From contig JACQDB010000030.1 in assembly GCA_016201275.1 (NCBI GenBank), positions 1-64,000 on the forward strand: DNA of 64,000 bases, written 5' to 3'. Below the pieces are notes generated by a model. That model was not told where the DNA came from and made no database searches. It saw only the letters and a program-made list of their open reading frames with translations. Source of the DNA: Acidobacteriota bacterium (lineage in GTDB: Bacteria; Acidobacteriota; Blastocatellia; UBA7656). The translations under genes and the position numbers were made by a program. Below are positions 46,137-58,020 of the stretch, in pieces (the stretch's first letter is position 1; the number at the start of each line of letters is the position of its first letter).

Positions 46137-47138
46137 TTACAAACCCATGTTCCAAGCCGCCATACGCAGCAAATCTTTCGGACTCTTCTTCAACTCGAAC
46201 ATGGCCGACGCTTCAAAGCCGCTGTGCATCATGCAGTTCTGGCACAACCTGTCCTGCCGCGATTCCCAATATGCCCAGTCCACTTTGTTCCAGAACTCTT
46301 GCCAGTTGTCGTAATACTCTTTGCCGATTAAATAGCAGGGGCCTTTCCAGCCGTTCGGGGTATAGGTCACGGTACTCCACGGCGAACACTGGTAATCGCG
46401 CATCCCTGCAGTAAATTCCAAGTACATGGGCGTGGACATCAAGCGATATTTTTTCGACAGTTCCAGCACCCGCTGGAACTTGATTTGAATCTCCTGCTTG
46501 GACAGAAAAATATCATGCTCGACGGTTTCGTAATGATAGCCCGGCGCAATCATCAAACCATCCACGCCCAATCCGGCGACCAATTCGCAGAGGTCTTCAA
46601 TCTCCTGCATCGCCGTCTCTTTGAACACCGTGGTATTCGTGGTGACGTGATAGCCGAGGCGCTTGGCTTCTTTAATCATCTCTATGGCTTTGTCGAAAAC
46701 GCCTTCGCGGTCGCAGACCAGATCGTGCGTGTGCTTCATGCCATCGAGATGCACGTTGAGGGTCAGGCGTTTATGCGGCGCGACCTTGCCGAAGATGCGC
46801 GAATCCAGCAACAGCGCGTTGGTGCAAAGATAGATGTGGCGCTGACGTTCGATGATGGCTTCAATCAGTTCTTTGATTTCGGGATAGATAGTCGGCTCGC
46901 CGCCGCACAAAGAGACAATCGGAGCCTGCGTTTCTTCGACCGCCTGAATACATTTTTCGAGTGCCAAGCGGTCTTCGATTTTGCCGGTGTGGCGTTCCAG
47001 CGCACAGCCTATGCAAGCGAGATTGCAGGTGTAAAGCGGCTCCAGCATCAACACCATAGGATAGCGTTTGTTGCCTTTCCTGGCGTTGCGAATTTGATGT
47101 TTGATAGCGTCTGTGGTGATATGAACGGGAAATCGCAT
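46137..47138 (-). CDS. hpnH: Adenosyl-hopane transferase HpnH (radical SAM)
   Basis: 333 aa. Radical SAM enzyme that attaches a 5'-deoxyadenosyl group from SAM to hopene (diploptene), starting C35 hopanoid synthesis. Seen: the N-terminal family sequence PVHITTDAIKHQIRNARKGNKRYP, the cluster motif CNLACIGC (about 38-45; CX3CX2C), SLCGGEPTIYPEI (SAM-binding GGEP), and PWSTVTYTPNGWKGPCYLIG, with further Cys residues in LCQNCMMHSGFEASAMF. All are characteristic of HpnH. Cytoplasmic, 70 bases after the Rpn-like gene and 60 before the kinase, same strand. Confidence 0.96.
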   Translation of the reverse strand: MRFPVHITTDAIKHQIRNARKGNKRYPMVLMLEPLYTCNLACIGCALERHTGKIEDRLALEKCIQAVEETQAPIVSLCGGEPTIYPEIKELIEAIIERQRHIYLCTNALLLDSRIFGKVAPHKRLTLNVHLDGMKHTHDLVCDREGVFDKAIEMIKEAKRLGYHVTTNTTVFKETAMQEIEDLCELVAGLGVDGLMIAPGYHYETVEHDIFLSKQEIQIKFQRVLELSKKYRLMSTPMYLEFTAGMRDYQCSPWSTVTYTPNGWKGPCYLIGKEYYDNWQEFWNKVDWAYWESRQDRLCQNCMMHSGFEASAMFELKKSPKDLLRMAAWNMGL

Positions 47139-47208: not shown

Positions 47209-48099
47209 TCAGTGCGCGAGATTTTGCCGGTTGAGCCATTCACGCAGATCGGCTTTGGTTTTGAAGTTCAGCAGAGCGGTGCCCAAGGCTTCGATTTGCG
47301 TTCGCGATAAAGTCTCAATTTGTTGCTTCACTCTGGCGCTCAGTTTGCCGACCTGCTGGGCAAGCTGTCTAGCGACCAAATCGCGCTCGCCTTCCAGTTG
47401 TCCTTTCTTGAAGCCTTGTTGCTCCCCTTCTTTGAGGATTGCCTGATAAACCGATGATTCTCTCATAAGTCCCTCCTGAAAAATATTTCTTACCATTTCG
47501 TTATCAAAACGTAAACCGGCTATGACCTGCGCCCAACCGGAGACATTGCGACGCAGAGCCAGCGGCTCTATGGCGTTGATCTTTTCAGCCAGCGCTTCCA
47601 GCAGGGCCGCTGGCGCTGCCGTGCGGCACAAGGTCGCCAACGGCAGAGACGCTTCGTGCTGCATAAATTCCTGTGGGTCTTGCTCCCACATCTTCACCAG
47701 ATGAAATTTGTGCCGCGTCTGGTCGCAAACAAATTCATCACGCACGACGACTTTCGTCTGTTTCAGCAAAACCACAAATTGGCGGCTCGCTTTGCCATAT
47801 TTGCGAAACAGGCGCACCCAATAATCCAGCATACGAAATTCAATCGGCGGTGCGCTTTTCGGGTCGGTCTGAAACTCCAAGTGCAACAGCTCATCGCCCG
47901 TGTCGAGCAAAATCACCGAATCGGCATGAATCGGCGGACTCATCAATTCGGTCTTCAAGACTCTGGCTTTGGTCACCGCACGCCCCAGAAACAGCGACGC
48001 AAACAGTTCGGGATTCCGCTCGGCAAGATACTTGCACAAATTATCGGTGCCCGCTCGACTGCGTGTTTTGCTATTTGCTGTGCTGTGCGTGTCGCTCAC
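47209..48099 (-). CDS. Rpn-like PD-(D/E)XK nuclease-family protein with DUF4351
   Basis: 296 aa. N-terminal Rpn/YhgA-like domain: ILLDTGDELLHLEFQTDP carries an Asp/Glu-x-Gln variant of the restriction-type catalytic core (about 65-82), then RMLDYWVRLFRKYG. A basic helical linker (KEGEQQGFKKGQLEGERDLV) precedes a C-terminal DUF4351-like helical hairpin (LSRTQIEALGTALLNF...LREWLNRQNL). Such genes are abundant in cyanobacteria and acidobacteria and behave like mobile nuclease genes (family knowledge). It sits seven bases after shc, inside the hopanoid run, probably as a guest. Confidence 0.85.
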   Translation of the reverse strand: MSDTHSTANSKTRSRAGTDNLCKYLAERNPELFASLFLGRAVTKARVLKTELMSPPIHADSVILLDTGDELLHLEFQTDPKSAPPIEFRMLDYWVRLFRKYGKASRQFVVLLKQTKVVVRDEFVCDQTRHKFHLVKMWEQDPQEFMQHEASLPLATLCRTAAPAALLEALAEKINAIEPLALRRNVSGWAQVIAGLRFDNEMVRNIFQEGLMRESSVYQAILKEGEQQGFKKGQLEGERDLVARQLAQQVGKLSARVKQQIETLSRTQIEALGTALLNFKTKADLREWLNRQNLAH

Positions 48100-48106
48100 C
48101 TTCGCG

Positions 48107-50032
48107 CTACTCCAAATCGAACATACGCTGCGCGAACAAGCCCAGAGCCAGCAAGGGAAAATAGACAGCGTACAAATGATAGCGAAGATAAAAGACTTTC
48201 GGAAAGCCTGTGCCGGTCCAGCCTTCGTCTATCCATGAGCCGTCTTCGCGTTGCGTCGCCAGCAAATACTCGATGCCACGGTCAACGCTCTGACTGACAT
48301 CCTGGGTTGCCATCAAGCCCATCACCGCCCAGGCCGTTTGTGAAGCCGTGCTGATGCCCTGCCCTTTGGTTGTCGCATCGTCGTAACTGCGCGGCGATTC
48401 GCCCCAGCCGCCATCCTCGTTCTGCACCGAACGCAACCAGCAGCCCGCCGATTGATAACGCGCTTCCATCATGTCTTCGCCTATGCACTTCAAACCGTGC
48501 AAGGCCAGCCACGTCCCGTAAATGTAATTGCAGCCCCAGCGCCCGAACCAAGTGAAATCGCGCTCCTGCTCTTTCAACAAAAAACTCATGGCTTTTTCCA
48601 CCACCGGATGCTTCATCTCAAGACCCAAACCGGCAAAAGTTTCCAGGCCGCGCCCGGTGATGTCTGCGGTGCTGGGATCAATCATCGCATTGTGGTCGGC
48701 AAAGGGAATCTGCGTCAGAAATTGTTCGTCGCAATCTTTATCGAACGACCCCCAGCCGCCATCTTTGTTCTGCATGGTCAAGATCCAGTTGAGGGCGCGT
48801 TGCATGGCCTCGCGTTTGCGCCGTTCGTCCGGCTCGCTGGGAAAGCGCACCTTGCTCAAGGCCGTCAACACTTGAAAAGTATCGTCAACGTCCGGGTAAA
48901 ATTCGTTGGCATATTCAAAATACCAGCCGCCGGGTTCGCCTTCTGGGTTCTTCACTTTCCAATCGCCGACCTCTTTGACCTCTTTGCTCAAAATCCATTC
49001 GGCGGCTTTCAACAGGCGCGGATGATGATTGGGCATACCCGATTCCACCAAGGCATTGATGGCCAGCGCCGTGTCCCAGACCGGCGAAAAACACGGCGCG
49101 ATTTTTAAGGTGTCGCCGTCTTCAATCTCCAGCCGTTCCAGCTCGCGGATTTGCGAAGCCGTCAACGGATGGTCGTTGTCATACCCCAAACAACGCAGCG
49201 CAATGATCGAATTGATGATCGGCGGAAAGATCGCGCCAATGCCGTCGCTCTTGGCAAAATGCTCGATCATCCATTGTTCGCAAGCCTTCAAAGCCTTGTC
49301 GCGTTTCGGCGACCACTTGCGTTTCTCCAACTGTTTCAAAGTCAGGTCGGTGGTGTGGAAAAAGCGTTTCCAAAAACTGAGATTCAATTCATTCGCCGGT
49401 CTGGCACCGGCTATGCGTAATTCAGCAATATCGGCATAAGGCGGCACCGGGCAAAACGGTTTATGCGCCCACATCACCGCCAGCGGCACCACGATGCCGC
49501 GTGTCCAGGCCGACATTTCCGACAGATTGACCGGCGACCATTTCGGCAACAGAATAATTTCCGGCGGCACTGCAGGGCAACGCTCCCAAGGGTATTGCCC
49601 GAAAATCGCCAGATAAATGCGCGTAAAACTGTTGGTCGCATCCAGCCCACCCAAATTCAAAATCACTTCGCGGGCTTTCTTCATGTGCGCGGCTTCGGCA
49701 TCATCGCCCAACAGTTTCAAGACGAAATAGGCTTTCGCAGAGGCGCTGACATCGGGCGGCCCACCTTGATAAATCGCCCAGCCGCCATCAGGCAGTTGCT
49801 GTTGGCGCAGGTAATTGGCGGCCATATGAACGCGTCCGCTATCGCCGCGCCCGATGTAATACATGGTCAGGATATATTCGGATTCCAATATGGTGTCGCC
49901 TTCCAATTCGCCGCGCCAATGACCATCCGCATATTGAATCCGCAAGAGGTGCTGCTGTGCCGCAGCAATGGCGTGGCGTACTTTGGCGTGCAGAGGAGAG
50001 AGAACGATTTGCGCTTGACCAGGTTTTGACAT
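48107..50032 (-). CDS. shc: Squalene-hopene cyclase
   Basis: 641 aa from the ATG at 50032, where GAGG lies nine bases upstream; ATG 50041 touches the RBS. Cyclises squalene to hopene/hopanol at the inner membrane. Seen: the N-terminal QW-like segment HLLRIQYADGHWRGELEGD, PDGGWAIYQGGPPDVSASAKAY, the protonating DVDDT in NEFYPDVDDTFQVL (about 380), and QW repeats QNKDGGWGSFDKD, QNEDGGWGESPRSYDD and QREDGSWIDEGW near the end. Length is a little below E. coli-type annotated cyclases (about 650-720 aa). ispH lies 110 bases upstream. Confidence 0.97.
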   Translation of the reverse strand: MSKPGQAQIVLSPLHAKVRHAIAAAQQHLLRIQYADGHWRGELEGDTILESEYILTMYYIGRGDSGRVHMAANYLRQQQLPDGGWAIYQGGPPDVSASAKAYFVLKLLGDDAEAAHMKKAREVILNLGGLDATNSFTRIYLAIFGQYPWERCPAVPPEIILLPKWSPVNLSEMSAWTRGIVVPLAVMWAHKPFCPVPPYADIAELRIAGARPANELNLSFWKRFFHTTDLTLKQLEKRKWSPKRDKALKACEQWMIEHFAKSDGIGAIFPPIINSIIALRCLGYDNDHPLTASQIRELERLEIEDGDTLKIAPCFSPVWDTALAINALVESGMPNHHPRLLKAAEWILSKEVKEVGDWKVKNPEGEPGGWYFEYANEFYPDVDDTFQVLTALSKVRFPSEPDERRKREAMQRALNWILTMQNKDGGWGSFDKDCDEQFLTQIPFADHNAMIDPSTADITGRGLETFAGLGLEMKHPVVEKAMSFLLKEQERDFTWFGRWGCNYIYGTWLALHGLKCIGEDMMEARYQSAGCWLRSVQNEDGGWGESPRSYDDATTKGQGISTASQTAWAVMGLMATQDVSQSVDRGIEYLLATQREDGSWIDEGWTGTGFPKVFYLRYHLYAVYFPLLALGLFAQRMFDLE

Positions 50033-50141
50033 AAAGGACATCCTCAAAAAAGTACCGCTTGAAACATATAGTTGAGACGATTTTCGCGCCCCCCTGAAAA
50101 AGCGTGGGCGGTGTTTTGGATCAGATAGTCGCCGTTGAATA

Positions 50142-51089
50142 TCAACTGGCGCTCAATTTCACCACCGGTTGAAGCAATTCCGGTGGCAGAGCAAAATGGA
50201 CATTTTCATCTTCGCCGGGTTGTTCGACAAATTCGCTTGCCCCTAGCTCGCGCAATTTTTCCAACACCCGTTTGACCAATTCTTCAGGTGCCGAAGCCCC
50301 TGCCGTGACGCCGACGACTTCGGCATCGGCAAGCCATTCGCTGTGAATCTGGGTGTCATCGTCTATCAAATAAGCAGGCACGCCAGCGACTTTCGACACT
50401 TCGCGCAAACGCTGCGAGTTGGAACTATTTTGTGAACCGACGACCAACAATACATCCACCTGTTGGCTCATCTCTTTGACGGCATTCTGGCGATTCTGCG
50501 TGGCGTAGCAAATATCATCTTTCGGCGGCGATTTCAAATTGGGAAATTTTTTCTTCAAAGCGTCGCTGATTTCCGCCACATCGTCCATGCTCAAGGTTGT
50601 CTGGGTAATGCAAACGACATTATCAGGATTTTCGACGGTTAAATTTTCCACATCCGCTACGGTGCTGACCAAGTGCATAGGCGCTTCGCCCATCGTGCCT
50701 TCGACCTCTTCGTGTCCCGGATGCCCGATTAAGACGATGGATTTTTTCTCCCGCGCATAGCGCACCGCTTCCAGATGCACTTTGGTCACCAGCGGACAGG
50801 TGGCATCTATGACTTGCAGATTTTTTCGAGCGGCGACCTCATGAATATACGGCGAAACGCCATGCGCGCTGAACACACAGACGTTGTGATCCGGTACTTC
50901 TTCGAGGCTGTTGACGAAAATGACGCCGCGTTTGCTGAGGGTTTCAACGACATATTGATTGTGGACAATTTCGTGAAAGACATAGATGGGTTCAGGAAAC
51001 CAGTCTATGGCTCGCTCGACAATATCAATCGCACGCACGACTCCGGCACAAAAACCACGCGGTTTCGCCAGCACCACTTTTTTAATCAT
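50142..51089 (-). CDS. ispH: 4-hydroxy-3-methylbut-2-enyl diphosphate reductase
   Basis: 315 aa. Fe-S enzyme of the MEP pathway that converts HMBPP to IPP and DMAPP, the precursors of squalene. Seen: GFCAGVVRAI (Cys near 13), FHEIVHNQYVV (substrate His), CPLVTKVHLEA (Cys near 97), IGHPGHEEVEGTMGEAP, ITQTTLS, CYATQNRQNAV (third Cys near 194) and VVGSQNSSNSQRLREV. All three cluster cysteines are present. Its placement between hpnI and shc links isoprenoid supply with hopanoid synthesis. Cytoplasmic. Confidence 0.97.
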   Translation of the reverse strand: MIKKVVLAKPRGFCAGVVRAIDIVERAIDWFPEPIYVFHEIVHNQYVVETLSKRGVIFVNSLEEVPDHNVCVFSAHGVSPYIHEVAARKNLQVIDATCPLVTKVHLEAVRYAREKKSIVLIGHPGHEEVEGTMGEAPMHLVSTVADVENLTVENPDNVVCITQTTLSMDDVAEISDALKKKFPNLKSPPKDDICYATQNRQNAVKEMSQQVDVLLVVGSQNSSNSQRLREVSKVAGVPAYLIDDDTQIHSEWLADAEVVGVTAGASAPEELVKRVLEKLRELGASEFVEQPGEDENVHFALPPELLQPVVKLSAS

Positions 51090-51189: not shown

Positions 51190-51362
51190 GCCCCCTTTAG
51201 GAGTGTAGGAGAAAGGGAGTAGGGGAGTAAGGGCGTGGGGGCGTAAGGGCGTGGAGAGATTTTTTATCAGTCGAAAAATTCTCCATCGCATCTTCTCCCT
51301 GTCTCCTTGTCTCCCCTTCTCCCTTTCTCCCTTTCTCCCCTACTTCCCCACTCCCCACTCCG
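51190..51362. repeat. Purine/pyrimidine inverted repeat array
   Basis: GAGAAAGGGAGTAGGGGAGT (from 51210) and GGGCGTGGGGGCGTAAGGGC give one arm; CTCCCTGTCTCCTTGTCTCC and CTTCTCCCTTTCTCCCTTTC (51296-51345) give the other, ending at the hpnI stop. The last codons of hpnI (TEWGVGK) are contributed by the repeat. Fills the gap between hpnI and ispH. Confidence 0.6.
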
Positions 51363-52512
51363 TCATCCGTCCGTCGCGCTGCACTTCAAAGATTCGTCCG
51401 CGCCATTCGACGCGCTTGCCCACCATGCTTAAACACCAGATGGCAAAGCTTAACAGATCACGCAATGGCAACAACCAGAAATATTTTTTCAAGAGCTTGT
51501 CCTGCATCCACTGCACGCCGATCATCCAAGCCGTCAACAAGCGTATGACCAGCGTTGCGGCCAATAAAATCAGGCTTTTTGGCGTGAAGCCATCCACTAC
51601 ACCCAGCAACAGCGCGAGCGCCGTGCCATAGGTAAGCAGCAACCCCAGATACCCTGCCGGACGTGAAATTCTGGTCGAACGCCCCCAACGCAATTGATGG
51701 CGCAGCATCCCGCTAAACCCTGCGGGCGACATCGCCGTTTCGACGATGTGTTCCGATAAACGAACTTCATACCCGGCCTCGGCGATCAAATTGCCGAGCA
51801 TAAAATCGTCGGCCAGATAATCGGCCAGCGCTTCCAATCCGCCAATCTCCTGCAAGTGCGTTTTGGTAGTCGCCATGGTGGAGCCGAGCGCAAACTTTAC
51901 GCCTTCCAACATACGCGCCATCAACACCCCTGCCGTAAATTCGCCGGTGATGCCGATGGCTTCCAACAACGCCGCGACATCGGGCGGCTCTGTAGCGCGA
52001 TACAAACAAGTCACCAGCCCGACTCGCGCTTCACCAAGCGGCGCGGTCACGCGCCGCAGATAATCTGTTTGGACACGAATATCGCTGTCAACAATGATGA
52101 TTTGCTCGTGTCTGGTTTGCGCCAAAATATTACGCAGGTTGCTGACTTTGAGATTTGCGCCGATGACCTGTGAAGCAATCACCAATTTGATGTCACGGTC
52201 GGGAAAATCGCTTTGCAATTTTTCGACAATCGGTATCGCCGTGTCGCTGGCTTCCCGCACACCGAACACCAGTTGATAGGCGGCTGGATAATCCTGCCGA
52301 CACAGGCGAGCATAGTTTTCATAGGCATTGAAATCGGCTCCGGCCAACGGAATCAGCAGCGACACCGGTTGCAGAGTGACGGCGGCGCGTTGCGGTTTCG
52401 GGAGAAAGAATCTGGCTCCGGCAAGCAGCGACAACAGATAAAAAACATTGGCCGCAAAGACGCCACAGACCAGAATAATTTTTATGATCAGAAGCAGCAT
52501 GAGTATTCCCAC
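51340..52512 (-). CDS. hpnI: Hopanoid glycosyltransferase HpnI
   Basis: 390 aa from GTG at 52512 (an ATG at 52500 also works). GT2 membrane glycosyltransferase that adds N-acetylglucosamine to bacteriohopanetetrol. Seen: an N-terminal membrane helix (LLLIIKIILVCGVFAANVFYLL), the catalytic DSDIRV (about 130), the ADDFMLGN acceptor motif and the Q/RxxRW-type motif in LRHQLRWGRSTR, then three C-terminal membrane helices. The family resembles ceramide glucosyltransferases, as HpnI does. Directly after the two SMR-like transporters (6 bases from the stop). The C-terminus runs into a repeat. Confidence 0.92.
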   Translation of the reverse strand: MGILMLLLIIKIILVCGVFAANVFYLLSLLAGARFFLPKPQRAAVTLQPVSLLIPLAGADFNAYENYARLCRQDYPAAYQLVFGVREASDTAIPIVEKLQSDFPDRDIKLVIASQVIGANLKVSNLRNILAQTRHEQIIIVDSDIRVQTDYLRRVTAPLGEARVGLVTCLYRATEPPDVAALLEAIGITGEFTAGVLMARMLEGVKFALGSTMATTKTHLQEIGGLEALADYLADDFMLGNLIAEAGYEVRLSEHIVETAMSPAGFSGMLRHQLRWGRSTRISRPAGYLGLLLTYGTALALLLGVVDGFTPKSLILLAATLVIRLLTAWMIGVQWMQDKLLKKYFWLLPLRDLLSFAIWCLSMVGKRVEWRGRIFEVQRDGRMTEWGVGK

Positions 52513-52518
52513 AGCACC

Positions 52519-52896
52519 TTATTCCGGCAACGAAATCAATGCCACCCCTAGGCCAACCAGCAAGGTGCCAAGCAAACGCTCGCGGCTGATTTTCTCGCGC
52601 AAAAAAACTTTCGCCGCAAAGGTCTTGAGAACAAATCCCAGCGCCGTGGCTGGCACCACCAGACTCAAATCCGCCTCCGACAAAACCACTAGAAAGACAA
52701 AAAAATTCATGCTCATCAGCACAAAGCCGATGAAGAAAAATTTATTGCTCAACACCCGCCAGCCAATCTTGACCAACTCCCGAATCCGCAGCGTCGAGAT
52801 TTCGCCAATCTGCCGCATCCCTTTGGCAATACAAATTTCGCCTATGGCATTGGTCAAAACGATGATGATGATAAGCGTAGCGATGTGCAGATTCAT
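52519..52896 (-). CDS. SMR/EamA-like 4-TM transporter, second of a pair
   Basis: 125 aa with four predicted membrane helices (starts NLHIATLIIIIVLTNAIGEICIA) and a conserved LSEADLSLVVPATALGFVLKTF stretch followed by FLREKISRERLLGTLLVGLGV, the half-EamA/SMR signature. It overlaps its partner gene by ATGA (52893-52896) and is the last gene before hpnI. Paired small SMR proteins such as ArnE/ArnF flip lipid-linked sugars across the inner membrane (family knowledge). Here the natural candidate cargo is glycosylated hopanoid; that is inference. Confidence 0.88.
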   Translation of the reverse strand: MNLHIATLIIIIVLTNAIGEICIAKGMRQIGEISTLRIRELVKIGWRVLSNKFFFIGFVLMSMNFFVFLVVLSEADLSLVVPATALGFVLKTFAAKVFLREKISRERLLGTLLVGLGVALISLPE

Positions 52897-53288
52897 GCTT
52901 CGCCTCCACGGATATCTTCAACCTCCGGCGTTTTAATTTCCGAACGCGACACAAAGGCAACGCCTACGCAGATAATCACTGCGCCCAGCCAGCGCAGCGG
53001 AGAAACCTGTTCGTGCAAAAAATATTTGGCGCAGGCGACATTCAAAACGTAGCCGAACGAAGTCGCTGGCAAGATGAAACTCAAATCCGCCCACGACAAC
53101 GCCGCCGTGTAGAGCGCGAAAAACGCCGCCAGCAAACCAATGCCTAGCCAGATCATGGGGTTTTGCATCCCCTGCAACAACGTCGCCATGAATCCGGCAT
53201 CGTCGAGGTTGTGCATCCCTTTGCTGAGTAAAATATTTCCGGCGACCTGTGCGACGATGGCCAGAATCAACACCACTGCGGTTTTCAT
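52893..53288 (-). CDS. SMR/EamA-like 4-TM transporter, first of a pair
   Basis: 131 aa, four membrane helices (VVLILAIVAQVAGNILLSKGM at the start, LSWADLSFILPATSFGYVLNV at helix 3, YFLHEQVSPLRWLGAVIICVGV at helix 4). It is a diverged paralogue of the next gene, consistent with a heterodimer. It overlaps both hpnK (ATGA at 53285-53288) and its partner, so stoichiometric translation of hpnK, transporter 1 and transporter 2 is likely. The charged tail (SEIKTPEVEDIRGGEA) is cytoplasmic by the positive-inside rule. Confidence 0.88.
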   Translation of the reverse strand: MKTAVVLILAIVAQVAGNILLSKGMHNLDDAGFMATLLQGMQNPMIWLGIGLLAAFFALYTAALSWADLSFILPATSFGYVLNVACAKYFLHEQVSPLRWLGAVIICVGVAFVSRSEIKTPEVEDIRGGEA

Positions 53289-54151
53289 ACGAGCGTATCC
53301 AATCCAAAATAGTTGATGAGTTGGAAGCGCGCATCTTGAGCGCGTTCCTGCACCTGCTGGTTTATCAAAGCCTCGAATTCTATCATCAATTGTTTCTCCT
53401 CCGCGTTCAAAACGCGACCTGTCGCGTAGAGCGCCGGGTGAAAATAGATTTCGTTGGTGGCGGCGTGCAGGTGTTCGAGGGCGTGTAGAAAATATTTATC
53501 GTTCATCGCGCCGCTCTGCAAATTGCCATAGACGCGCTCGGCAAACACGAAGTCGTGTTTTTTCAAATGACGCTTCATGTACAGCCCCAAAGCGCCAAAC
53601 ATCAATCGGTGTATGCCCTTTCGCAGTTTGAATCTGCCGTCAAATTGCAAAGCGAGATGTAATTCTTCCATAGGCACGCGCATACGTTTCGCGCCGTATT
53701 TCGCGCCCAATTCCAAAGCGGTTTTGAAAATCACCGGATGAATGTGCAGGTGCAGATGCCCGTCAATATGTGATAGTGGCAAGCCGGTTTGATGAAAGCG
53801 CTCGAACTGCGCGGCTAATTCTTTGCGTAGTTCGCGGCGCGCTCGCAATGAAAAAAAGTATTTCATACCGGCGGTGTTCGGGTTGTTCGAGAAATTGCCC
53901 TGGGCGTCAACCAGGGTAGGAATTTCCGCCTGTGGCAAGGCGCTGCGCCCGACCACCGTGACCAGATGAATGCCAACGCCGAGCTTGGGATTTTCTTTCG
54001 CCAACTGCACCGCTTGCTCGAAAGCTGCGCCGGTCACCATCAAACTGCAACTGGTCAACACGCCGTCTTGATGAGCGCGAATGATGGCTTCATTGACCTC
54101 TGCGGAGGCACCGAAGTCATCGGCATTGATAATCACTCGATATGGATTCAT
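53285..54151 (-). CDS. hpnK: Hopanoid N-deacetylase HpnK (YdjC/ChbG-like)
   Basis: 288 aa. YdjC-fold carbohydrate deacetylase that removes acetate from the GlcNAc head of hopanoids, after HpnI (family knowledge). Seen: VIINADDFGASAEVNEAI (metal-binding Asp pair near 12), LGVGIHLVTVVGRSALP with His near 63, and the HIDGHLHLHIHP cluster (about 130). GYFF-type features are replaced by GMKYFFSLRARRELRKEL. Length is normal. ATGA overlaps at both ends (with the 80-aa gene and the first transporter gene) make it the centre of a tightly coupled four-gene block. Confidence 0.93.
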   Translation of the reverse strand: MNPYRVIINADDFGASAEVNEAIIRAHQDGVLTSCSLMVTGAAFEQAVQLAKENPKLGVGIHLVTVVGRSALPQAEIPTLVDAQGNFSNNPNTAGMKYFFSLRARRELRKELAAQFERFHQTGLPLSHIDGHLHLHIHPVIFKTALELGAKYGAKRMRVPMEELHLALQFDGRFKLRKGIHRLMFGALGLYMKRHLKKHDFVFAERVYGNLQSGAMNDKYFLHALEHLHAATNEIYFHPALYATGRVLNAEEKQLMIEFEALINQQVQERAQDARFQLINYFGLDTLV

Positions 54152-54390
54152 GAATTGCGGGATTTGATTGAGGCTTTCGGCGGCAGGACAGGTTTGCAGA
54201 CCACTTCCAATTGGCGTTCAATGCGGTCAAGGCGTTGTTCAATTGAGCCTACTCCGTGATCAAATCGCTTTTCCAATTGGGCAACCAGCTTTCCGGCTGG
54301 CCGTTGATTCGGCCAGGGCGCGCCAAACATAGAGACGACCAGAGCAAGCATAGCAATCGCGGCGGCAATCAGGGCAATACTTGGGATCAT
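54148..54390 (-). CDS. 80-aa single-span membrane protein
   Basis: Starts MIPSIALIAAAIAMLALVVSMFG, one membrane helix, then a charged helical stretch (LVAQLEKRFDHGVGSIEQRL...DRIERQLEVV) that could form a coiled coil, and a Pro/Lys-rich tail. GGAGAG lies six bases before the ATG, and the stop overlaps the hpnK start. It is not a recognised hopanoid gene. Its position between hpnJ and hpnK suggests a scaffold or partner of the hopanoid-modifying enzymes. Confidence 0.75.
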   Translation of the reverse strand: MIPSIALIAAAIAMLALVVSMFGAPWPNQRPAGKLVAQLEKRFDHGVGSIEQRLDRIERQLEVVCKPVLPPKASIKSRNS

Positions 54391-54528: not shown

Positions 54529-55965
54529 TTAGCGACTCGCTTGCGTTGCCACGAACTGTTTGCGCTTCGAGCGCAGTTGCAAAAATTCCTTCGCCTCTTT
54601 GTACAGGCGTCTGCGTTCGTGACCATTAAACGCCGCTTTGCGAACAATGCGGAAGATGATGCGGGGACGGAAATAATAGCGGTCATAAAAACTCTCGACC
54701 GCCTGCACGATCTCTTCCCGCGACAAGCCCGGATATTGAATCACCGGCAGTTGATGGCCTACGTCGTCAATCATGTTGTCGTAATCCATCAGGTAATTAT
54801 TCTTCTTCACAAAATCATCGAACTCGGTGCCGGGATAAGAATGCCCTATGGAAACCTGTATGGTTTCGCAATCCAGTTTTTCGGCAAACTTCACCGTGCG
54901 TTCGATGGTTTCGTGCGTCTCACCCGGCAAGCCTATGATAAAGTCGCCGTGAACCACGATGCCGAGTTTCTTGCAGTTCTTCATGAACTCGTGAGCCTGC
55001 GCCACGTCCGCGCCTTTCTTGATGTTCTTCAATATCTGATCGTCGCCCGATTCAAAACCGACAATCAACAAACGGCAACCGGCATCGCGCATGGCTTTCA
55101 GGGTTTCGTAATCGGTATGCACACGCGACGTGCAAGACCAGGTTTTCTTCATAGGCTTTAACTTCTCGCACAAATCAATTGTCCGGCGTTTGCCCCAAGC
55201 GAAGGTATCATCGTCAAAGAAAATTTCTTCAAGGTTGGGAAACAATTCCCAGGCGCGTTTGAATTCGGCGGCGACGTTATCCGCACTGCGCGTGCGCCAG
55301 GCGTGACCGCTGATGGTTTGCGGCCACAAACAAAAGGTGCAGAGCGCCGGACAACCGCGCGACGAATAGAACGCGATATACGGGTTCAATAAAAACGGCA
55401 CATTGTATTTGGTGATGTCGAGATCGCGTTTGTAAATATCCACGGCAAACGGCAACCCATCCAGATCGTGCAGCGGGGCGCGCTCAGGGTTATGAATGAT
55501 CTTGCCGTCTTTGCGATAGCTGACATTTTGTATGGTCTCCAGCGGCTGGCCTTCGGTGTATTCTTTGAGCGGAAAATCAATCTCTTTGCGAACAATGAAA
55601 TCAATAGCGTTCGAGGCTTTCAACGCTTGATCGGGTTGCGAGGTGACGGGCGGCCCTACGAAAGCAATCTTCAAATCGGGCTTGGCCTGTTTCATCAACT
55701 CCGCGAGTTTCAAATCATTTTTCCAACCGGGAGTGCTGGTATAGAGGGTGACGAAATCGTACTGCTTGGAAATTTCGATGGTCTCTTCGGGCGTCACGCC
55801 ATGCGGCGGCGCATCCAGCAAGCGGCTGTCTTTGATTAGCCCTGCAGGATAGGTCAACCACACGGGATACCAGAACGAAGCGATTTCCCGCGCCGCCGGC
55901 CAACGCGAACTCGCGCCGCCGTCAAAGTTCGGGAACGAGGGTGGATTGAGAAGCAGTGTTTTCAT
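54529..55965 (-). CDS. hpnJ: Hopanoid-associated radical SAM enzyme HpnJ
   Basis: 478 aa. An N-terminal cobalamin-binding-like domain (about 1-160: FVTLYTSTPGWKNDLKLAEL, IAFVGPPVTSQPDQAL) is followed by a radical SAM core with YSSRGCPALCTFCLWP (CX3CX2C, about 205). Later motifs are FFDDDTFAWGKRR and VGFESGDDQILKNIKKG. HpnJ is proposed to convert the amino-sugar head group to the cyclitol ether of bacteriohopanetetrol cyclitol ether (family knowledge). First gene of the minus-strand hopanoid run; a divergent PhyH gene begins 250 bases away. Confidence 0.93.
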   Translation of the reverse strand: MKTLLLNPPSFPNFDGGASSRWPAAREIASFWYPVWLTYPAGLIKDSRLLDAPPHGVTPEETIEISKQYDFVTLYTSTPGWKNDLKLAELMKQAKPDLKIAFVGPPVTSQPDQALKASNAIDFIVRKEIDFPLKEYTEGQPLETIQNVSYRKDGKIIHNPERAPLHDLDGLPFAVDIYKRDLDITKYNVPFLLNPYIAFYSSRGCPALCTFCLWPQTISGHAWRTRSADNVAAEFKRAWELFPNLEEIFFDDDTFAWGKRRTIDLCEKLKPMKKTWSCTSRVHTDYETLKAMRDAGCRLLIVGFESGDDQILKNIKKGADVAQAHEFMKNCKKLGIVVHGDFIIGLPGETHETIERTVKFAEKLDCETIQVSIGHSYPGTEFDDFVKKNNYLMDYDNMIDDVGHQLPVIQYPGLSREEIVQAVESFYDRYYFRPRIIFRIVRKAAFNGHERRRLYKEAKEFLQLRSKRKQFVATQASR

Positions 55966-57718: not shown

Positions 57719-58020
57719 AATCCCCCCGATGGCAGTCGGGGGATGCTTAAAGTCCAACCTACGAAACGCCGCGCAACATCTACCAATCCCCCCGATGGCA
57801 ATCGGGGGATGCTTAAAGTCCAACCTACGAAACGCTGCCAACGAGAAACGAATCCCCCCGATGGCAATCGGGGGATAGTTAAAGTCCAACCTTGCTCGAT
57901 GCTCAAGGCTGGACTTTAACCATCCCCCAACTGCCGTTGGGGGGATTGCAAAAAAACTTTGCTTGCTTGGTGTAGGCTGGACTTTAACCATCCCCCAACT
58001 GCCGTTGGGGGGATTCAGAT
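57719..58020. repeat. Cluster of five palindromic CCCCCGATGGCAATCGGGGG units
   Basis: Three direct units (from 57719, 57785 and 57851), each AATCCCCCCGATGGCAATCG plus GGGGAT and TTAAAGTCCAACC, are followed by two inverted ones (57905 and 57973) with GGACTTTAACCATCCCCCAA plus CTGCCGTTGGGGGGATT. Each unit is a hairpin with a shared tail. This fills the gap between the GNAT and HPr-kinase-like genes, which has no genes. Confidence 0.8.

Follow-up and report, generated by a model that had tools for sequence, protein, structure and literature searches.

The window analysed here is a stretch of 64,000 nucleotides (positions 1 to 64,000) of contig JACQDB010000030.1, part of a 6.84-Mb genome whose close homologues are Acidobacteriota of the Blastocatellia type. 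Its minus strand carries a block of genes for hopanoids, the sterol-like lipids of bacteria, and within this block lie two small genes for membrane proteins, named here SMR1 and SMR2, which are our subject. They are transcribed in the order hpnJ, an open reading frame (ORF) of 80 residues, hpnK, SMR1, SMR2 and hpnI:

54529..55965, minus strand, hpnJ, B12-binding radical SAM protein for cyclitol ether formation (TIGR03471, 725 bits, cut-off 577.6)
54148..54390, minus strand, 80-residue ORF, possible extra operon member on reading of the sequence
53285..54151, minus strand, hpnK, YdjC-type deacetylase of bacteriohopanetetrol (BHT)-N-acetylglucosamine (TIGR03473, 288 bits, cut-off 232.6; PF04794, E 7e-68)
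52893..53288, minus strand, SMR1, 131 residues, SMR/EamA protein with four transmembrane (TM) helices, first subunit of the pair (EamA match of 30.3 bits, structural model, Foldseek)
52519..52896, minus strand, SMR2, 125 residues, SMR/EamA protein with four TM helices, second subunit of the pair (EamA match, structural model, Foldseek)
51340..52512, minus strand, hpnI, BHT N-acetylglucosaminyl (GlcNAc) transferase (TIGR03472, 383 bits, cut-off 310)

The stop and start codons of hpnK and SMR1 (53285-53288) and of SMR1 and SMR2 (52893-52896) overlap, each as ATGA; the hpnK start overlaps the stop of the 80-residue ORF in the same way, and 6 nt separate the end of SMR2 from hpnI. A first-pass annotation of this DNA had placed two small SMR/EamA paralogues between hpnK and hpnI, with hpnK ATGA-coupled to them, and both this arrangement and its naming of the two enzymes hold. 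The 80-residue ORF encodes a single hydrophobic N-terminal stretch followed by an apparent coiled coil.

SMR1 and SMR2 share 33% identity and are the sole two significant single-sequence matches across the genome. Both belong to the EamA/DMT superfamily by the curated threshold of PF00892 (gathering threshold 28.2 bits), SMR1 with 30.3 bits (E 2.7e-6) and SMR2, just at the threshold, with 28.2 bits (E 5.8e-7). A Pfam scan of the pair also returned a weak match to Nuc_sug_transp. Neither protein matched Multi_Drug_Res (PF00893), which defines the SMR family proper (PMC9574504), at E-values up to 1. Modelled with AlphaFold2 from alignments that comprised 27 homologues for SMR1 and 25 for SMR2, the two proteins have four long helices each, with mean pLDDT of 90.6 and 93.4 respectively. 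Because a sequence search of the PDB gave no useful relative of the pair, we compared folds: the top PDB matches in Foldseek were EmrE and Gdx-Clo, with a probability of approximately 1 and weak E-values of 0.04-0.08. In size, number of TM helices and packing, the modelled proteins resemble EmrE and Gdx-Clo and are predicted to have the SMR fold.

Linkage to composite-hopanoid genes

To BHT, HpnI adds GlcNAc, HpnK deacetylates the product to BHT-glucosamine, and HpnJ converts this to the cyclitol ether (PMC12583986). We surveyed 197 Acidobacteriota genomes, calling the SMR pair at scores of at least 121 bits. The pair is carried by 31 genomes, comprising 29 of the 31 genomes with HpnJ but only 2 of the 166 without it (Fisher p 5e-30). 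Coordinate tables for the 31 HpnJ genomes place it at most about 1.2 kb from hpnJ in 27; the exceptions are one genome without an SMR gene (G083), two in which a contig ends (G214 and G217) and one with the pair 8 kb away (G161). Within the window's class, SMR1 adjoins 23 of the 25 HpnK genes that score above cut-off. When named genomes were scanned with an alignment of HpnJ, 80 loci were found, 43 acidobacterial and 37 from other phyla. An SMR gene lies near hpnJ in 35 of the acidobacterial loci, 33 of which have two, and in 9 of the 37 others. At a further 6 non-acidobacterial loci a weaker-scoring protein lies near hpnI, and all four of those checked are longer EamA-like proteins.

The linkage extends to the order Geobacterales, where 98 of the 102 HpnJ genomes have a single SMR gene no more than 1.5 kb from hpnJ (median gap 900 bp), with hpnK between the two in the loci inspected. 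In three of the four exceptions hpnJ is at a contig end (G247, G254, G324), and in the fourth (G262) the downstream sequence lacks an SMR gene. Across all surveys, well over 100 genomes show the arrangement, which is therefore not due to chance. Conserved linkage with hpnJ, hpnK and hpnI across genomes, our basis for placing the pair in this pathway, is thus present, and the connection of the pair and its homologues to the composite-hopanoid genes is close to certain. The first-pass annotation had named two findings that would refute its idea, absence of the pair from most other hpnI/hpnK/hpnJ clusters and a link of most homologues to unrelated functions; neither refutes it in the two clades covered by whole-genome surveys. 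The paired form occurs mainly in Acidobacteriota, and elsewhere there is a single gene, a longer EamA protein, or none. The cyanobacterial, Verrucomicrobia and some other loci inspected have no SMR gene adjoining hpnJ, and the gene is therefore not universal.

The first-pass annotation had further stressed the coupling of hpnK to the pair; in the wider sample, hpnK is not a constant partner. Many loci read hpnJ-SMR1-SMR2-hpnI with no hpnK nearby, in agreement with the published absence of hpnK from SD1 and SD3 acidobacteria (PMC5462960). Conversely, one group of genomes has hpnI-hpnK-SMR without hpnJ (L170-L173), followed in L171-L173 by a PseC/ArnB-like aminotransferase gene and, in L171, with shc and hpnH near; this may be a route to a different amino-sugar hopanoid. 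In Geobacterales and many SD1-type Acidobacteriota, the gene stands beside hpnJ/hpnK with no hpnI nearby. Neither HpnK nor HpnJ alone is the constant partner, and the sugar-head pathway is the common element of these arrangements. At three further loci (L178, L180, L183) a second HpnK-like (YdjC) gene directly precedes an ArnC-like glycosyltransferase gene, an apparently separate deacetylase/glycosyltransferase module.

Five loci encode SMR2 fused in frame to HpnI (L014, complete in L182; L020; L021; L060; L061). These span two phyla, comprising Blastocatellia-class genomes and two metagenome-assembled genomes labelled Deltaproteobacteria. The predicted topologies fit such a fusion: the lysine/arginine (K/R) bias of SMR2 is negative in 25 of 25 homologues (mean -6.4), predicting an N-out/C-out orientation, and HpnI, as we read its sequence, has a single N-terminal TM helix followed by a cytoplasmic catalytic domain. 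SMR1 homologues have a mean bias of +1.3, with 15 positive, 7 zero and 5 negative, and the single genes of Geobacterales are near neutral (-1 to -3).

The hopanoid block continues on the same strand beyond hpnI:

50142..51089, minus strand, ispH-like gene (sequence inspection)
48107..50047, minus strand, shc/hpnF, squalene-hopene cyclase (TIGR01507, 713 bits, cut-off 431)
47209..48099, minus strand, DUF4351-domain gene between shc and hpnH
46137..47138, minus strand, hpnH, adenosyl-hopene transferase (TIGR03470, 369 bits, cut-off 225)

The DUF4351 gene appears to have been inserted into the block. No promoter or terminator signals above chance were found in the hopanoid block. Elsewhere in the window, positions 57719-57892 hold a tandem array of 2.6 copies of a 66-bp unit.

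Relationship to ArnE/ArnF and other membrane proteins

In a phylogenetic tree, the hopanoid-linked proteins form one group (support 99/96), distinct both from the E. coli proteins EmrE, Gdx, MdtI, MdtJ, ArnE and ArnF and from other SMR-like genes that the same genomes carry. SMR2 is itself a supported group (98/97), suggesting that SMR1 and SMR2 belong to two old lineages, in a tree built on only 126 columns whose fine branching is unsure. Several of those other SMR-like genes, the next relatives of the hopanoid-linked group, lie beside ArnA-, ArnC- or ArnT-like genes. The concern that homologues might be tied to unrelated functions is answered by this separate hopanoid clade and by distant relatives in Arn-type lipid-sugar settings. 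A plasmid collection held few homologues, the most informative being an SMR gene in a Variovorax arn-type operon.

ArnE/ArnF, the undecaprenyl-phosphate-aminoarabinose flippase, represents the lipid subtype of the SMR family, and the first-pass annotation had likened the pair to it. The likeness holds in part. Both systems comprise two small four-TM proteins encoded beside cytoplasmic-side enzymes of (amino)sugar-lipid synthesis, both lack the central Glu, and ArnE and ArnF are among the pair's best NCBIfam matches. The scores, however, are far below the cut-offs of 92 (ArnE) and 99 (ArnF) bits: 26/17 for SMR2, 26/12 for SMR1 and 43/32 for a Geobacterales homologue, whose best NCBIfam match is nevertheless ArnE (E 3e-11). 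The pair also branches outside the E. coli group, occupies a hopanoid rather than an arn operon, and has a subunit sometimes fused to a glycosyltransferase. By these comparisons, the pair appears ArnE/F-like in setting and Glu loss but not a member of the ArnE/ArnF subtype. The drug, guanidinium and polyamine transporters EmrE, Gdx and MdtIJ have the four-TM fold in common with the pair, and MdtIJ is likewise encoded by paired genes, but all have the central Glu and the Tyr switch, and the hopanoid pair has neither. At the position of the central Glu, SMR1 homologues carry Q (13), N (9), A (7) or G (4), and SMR2 homologues mostly G and S, also A, D, T or N; none carries Glu. At the Tyr-switch column, whose alignment may at this divergence be shifted by a residue or two, SMR1 homologues have mostly L, M or V and SMR2 homologues V, A or E, whereas Tyr is kept in 10 of 13 arn-linked homologues. 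Lipid SMRs often carry Asn in place of the central Glu, which suggests transport that is not proton-coupled (PMC9574504).

The single SMR genes of Leptospirillum type, next to hpnI (L108:12210-12758, L109:12635-13030, L110:12401-13045), encode a Glu aligned with the central Glu of EmrE, unlike the acidobacterial pair. The EamA-like transporter that PMC12654047 lists in a Leptospirillum hopanoid cluster, as a domain and without comment on its role, is probably this single-gene homologue. A 281-residue Gloeothece protein (L036:7953-8795) matches both SMR1 and SMR2 profiles strongly, as an apparent fused double version in a non-hopanoid context. Lawsonia radical SAM matches (32% identity) were set aside, since they lie in an unrelated glycan cluster.

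Other candidates for hopanoid transport belong to different families. HpnN, an RND-type hopanoid transporter, scored at best 38 bits in the host genome (cut-off 752), and HpnL gave no match there at E 1e-20. HpnL, of the LPG_synthase_TM family, is an integral membrane protein of unknown function encoded beside hpnI/J/K in proteobacterial clusters, a setting like that of the pair. In Acidobacteriota, the 31 genomes with the SMR pair and the 27 with HpnL-like matches do not overlap, and in G083, the sole HpnJ genome in which an SMR gene is missing although the context is complete, hpnI-hpnJ-hpnK is followed by an HpnL-like gene. This complementarity is suggestive only, because every acidobacterial HpnL match is below cut-off and because in some Binataceae-type loci an LPG_synthase_TM protein occurs together with an EamA protein.

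A candidate flippase and its alternatives

HpnK and HpnJ homologues have no membrane segments, and the head group is therefore probably built on the cytoplasmic side. If HpnI, HpnK and HpnJ all act there, their sugar-headed product would need a flippase. From the gene content and coupling, the predicted fold, the pathway linkage, the fusions, the charge bias and the residue losses, we infer that SMR1 and SMR2 are a dedicated flippase for sugar-headed hopanoids, a reading to which we give a probability of roughly 60%. In the inner membrane, the two proteins would pair as an antiparallel heterodimer and move BHT-GlcNAc, BHT-glucosamine or the BHT cyclitol ether from the cytoplasmic to the periplasmic leaflet, where the lipid would stay or from which it would pass to the outer membrane. 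Since the central Glu is missing, transport is probably not proton-coupled, and may resemble that of ArnE/ArnF, with synthesis setting up the gradient along which flipping is facilitated. The HpnI-associated subunit appears to be SMR2, because SMR2 and HpnI are fused in some genomes. In Geobacterales, the single homologue probably acts as a homodimer, which its near-neutral charge bias fits.

Several observations weigh against this reading. The charge bias of SMR1 is weak and mixed in sign, the Foldseek E-values are weak, and the pair has lost the Tyr switch that ArnE/F conserve. Besides one Acidisarcina plasmid row, the hopanoid-linked clade also holds four rows from two genomes with the pair and no HpnJ (G118 and G194). 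Among the clusters examined, those of alpha- and beta-proteobacteria (Paraburkholderia, Methylobacterium) lack the gene and have HpnL. Since alphaproteobacteria with hpnI/J/K make composite hopanoids (PMC12583986), the gene is not universally needed. Hopanoids may also cross membranes spontaneously, less probably with a sugar head.

The same fusions and tight gene coupling would suit a structural subunit, and loss of the Glu and Tyr switch could mean that transport itself was lost. The pair might then be an assembly or scaffold factor that anchors HpnI (as well as HpnK/HpnJ) to the membrane, or that delivers bacteriohopanetetrol to HpnI, and it would transport nothing. We regard this as unlikely, given that the gene stands beside hpnJ/hpnK without a nearby hpnI in Geobacterales and many SD1-type Acidobacteriota, and that two distinct subunits of SMR-like fold, typical of SMR transporters, are kept in many genomes. 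Slightly less probable still is transport of another molecule of the pathway, such as unglycosylated BHT, a nucleotide sugar, an amino sugar, or a side product of HpnK or HpnJ activity. EamA/DMT proteins carry many small metabolites, nucleotide sugars included, and the weak Nuc_sug_transp match agrees with this; yet the closest relatives with informative context lie in lipid-linked-sugar gene sets, and among named families ArnE/ArnF, which are glycolipid flippases, come nearest. Membership of SMR/EamA, and the frequency of pairs among drug and polyamine SMRs (PMC9574504), would also allow an ordinary drug or polyamine exporter that reached the hopanoid operon by chance. We consider this very improbable and rejected ordinary drug export on the linkage to hpnJ in two phyla, the fusion to HpnI and the loss of the Glu that drives proton-coupled export; the clade is also separate from EmrE, Gdx and MdtIJ.

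Extending the flippase reading beyond the window, it is an even bet that these proteins comprise a further SMR/EamA class dedicated to flipping sugar-headed hopanoids, heterodimeric in Acidobacteriota with one subunit sometimes fused to HpnI, homodimeric in Geobacterales, and replaced elsewhere by a longer EamA protein or HpnL. Searches of open-licence papers on hopanoids for flippase, EamA, SMR or DMT found no role proposed for such proteins, and in the same literature we found no description of how hopanoids with large polar heads cross the inner membrane. A direct handle on this step comes from a gene that two phyla keep next to hpnJ and that is joined to hpnI in some genomes. Geobacterales include cultured, genetically tractable organisms, and the question is therefore testable. 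If the flippase reading is correct, the lipid-flipping SMR subtype would take in triterpenoids as well as polyprenyl-phosphate sugars, and HpnL would become a candidate for the same job in proteobacteria.
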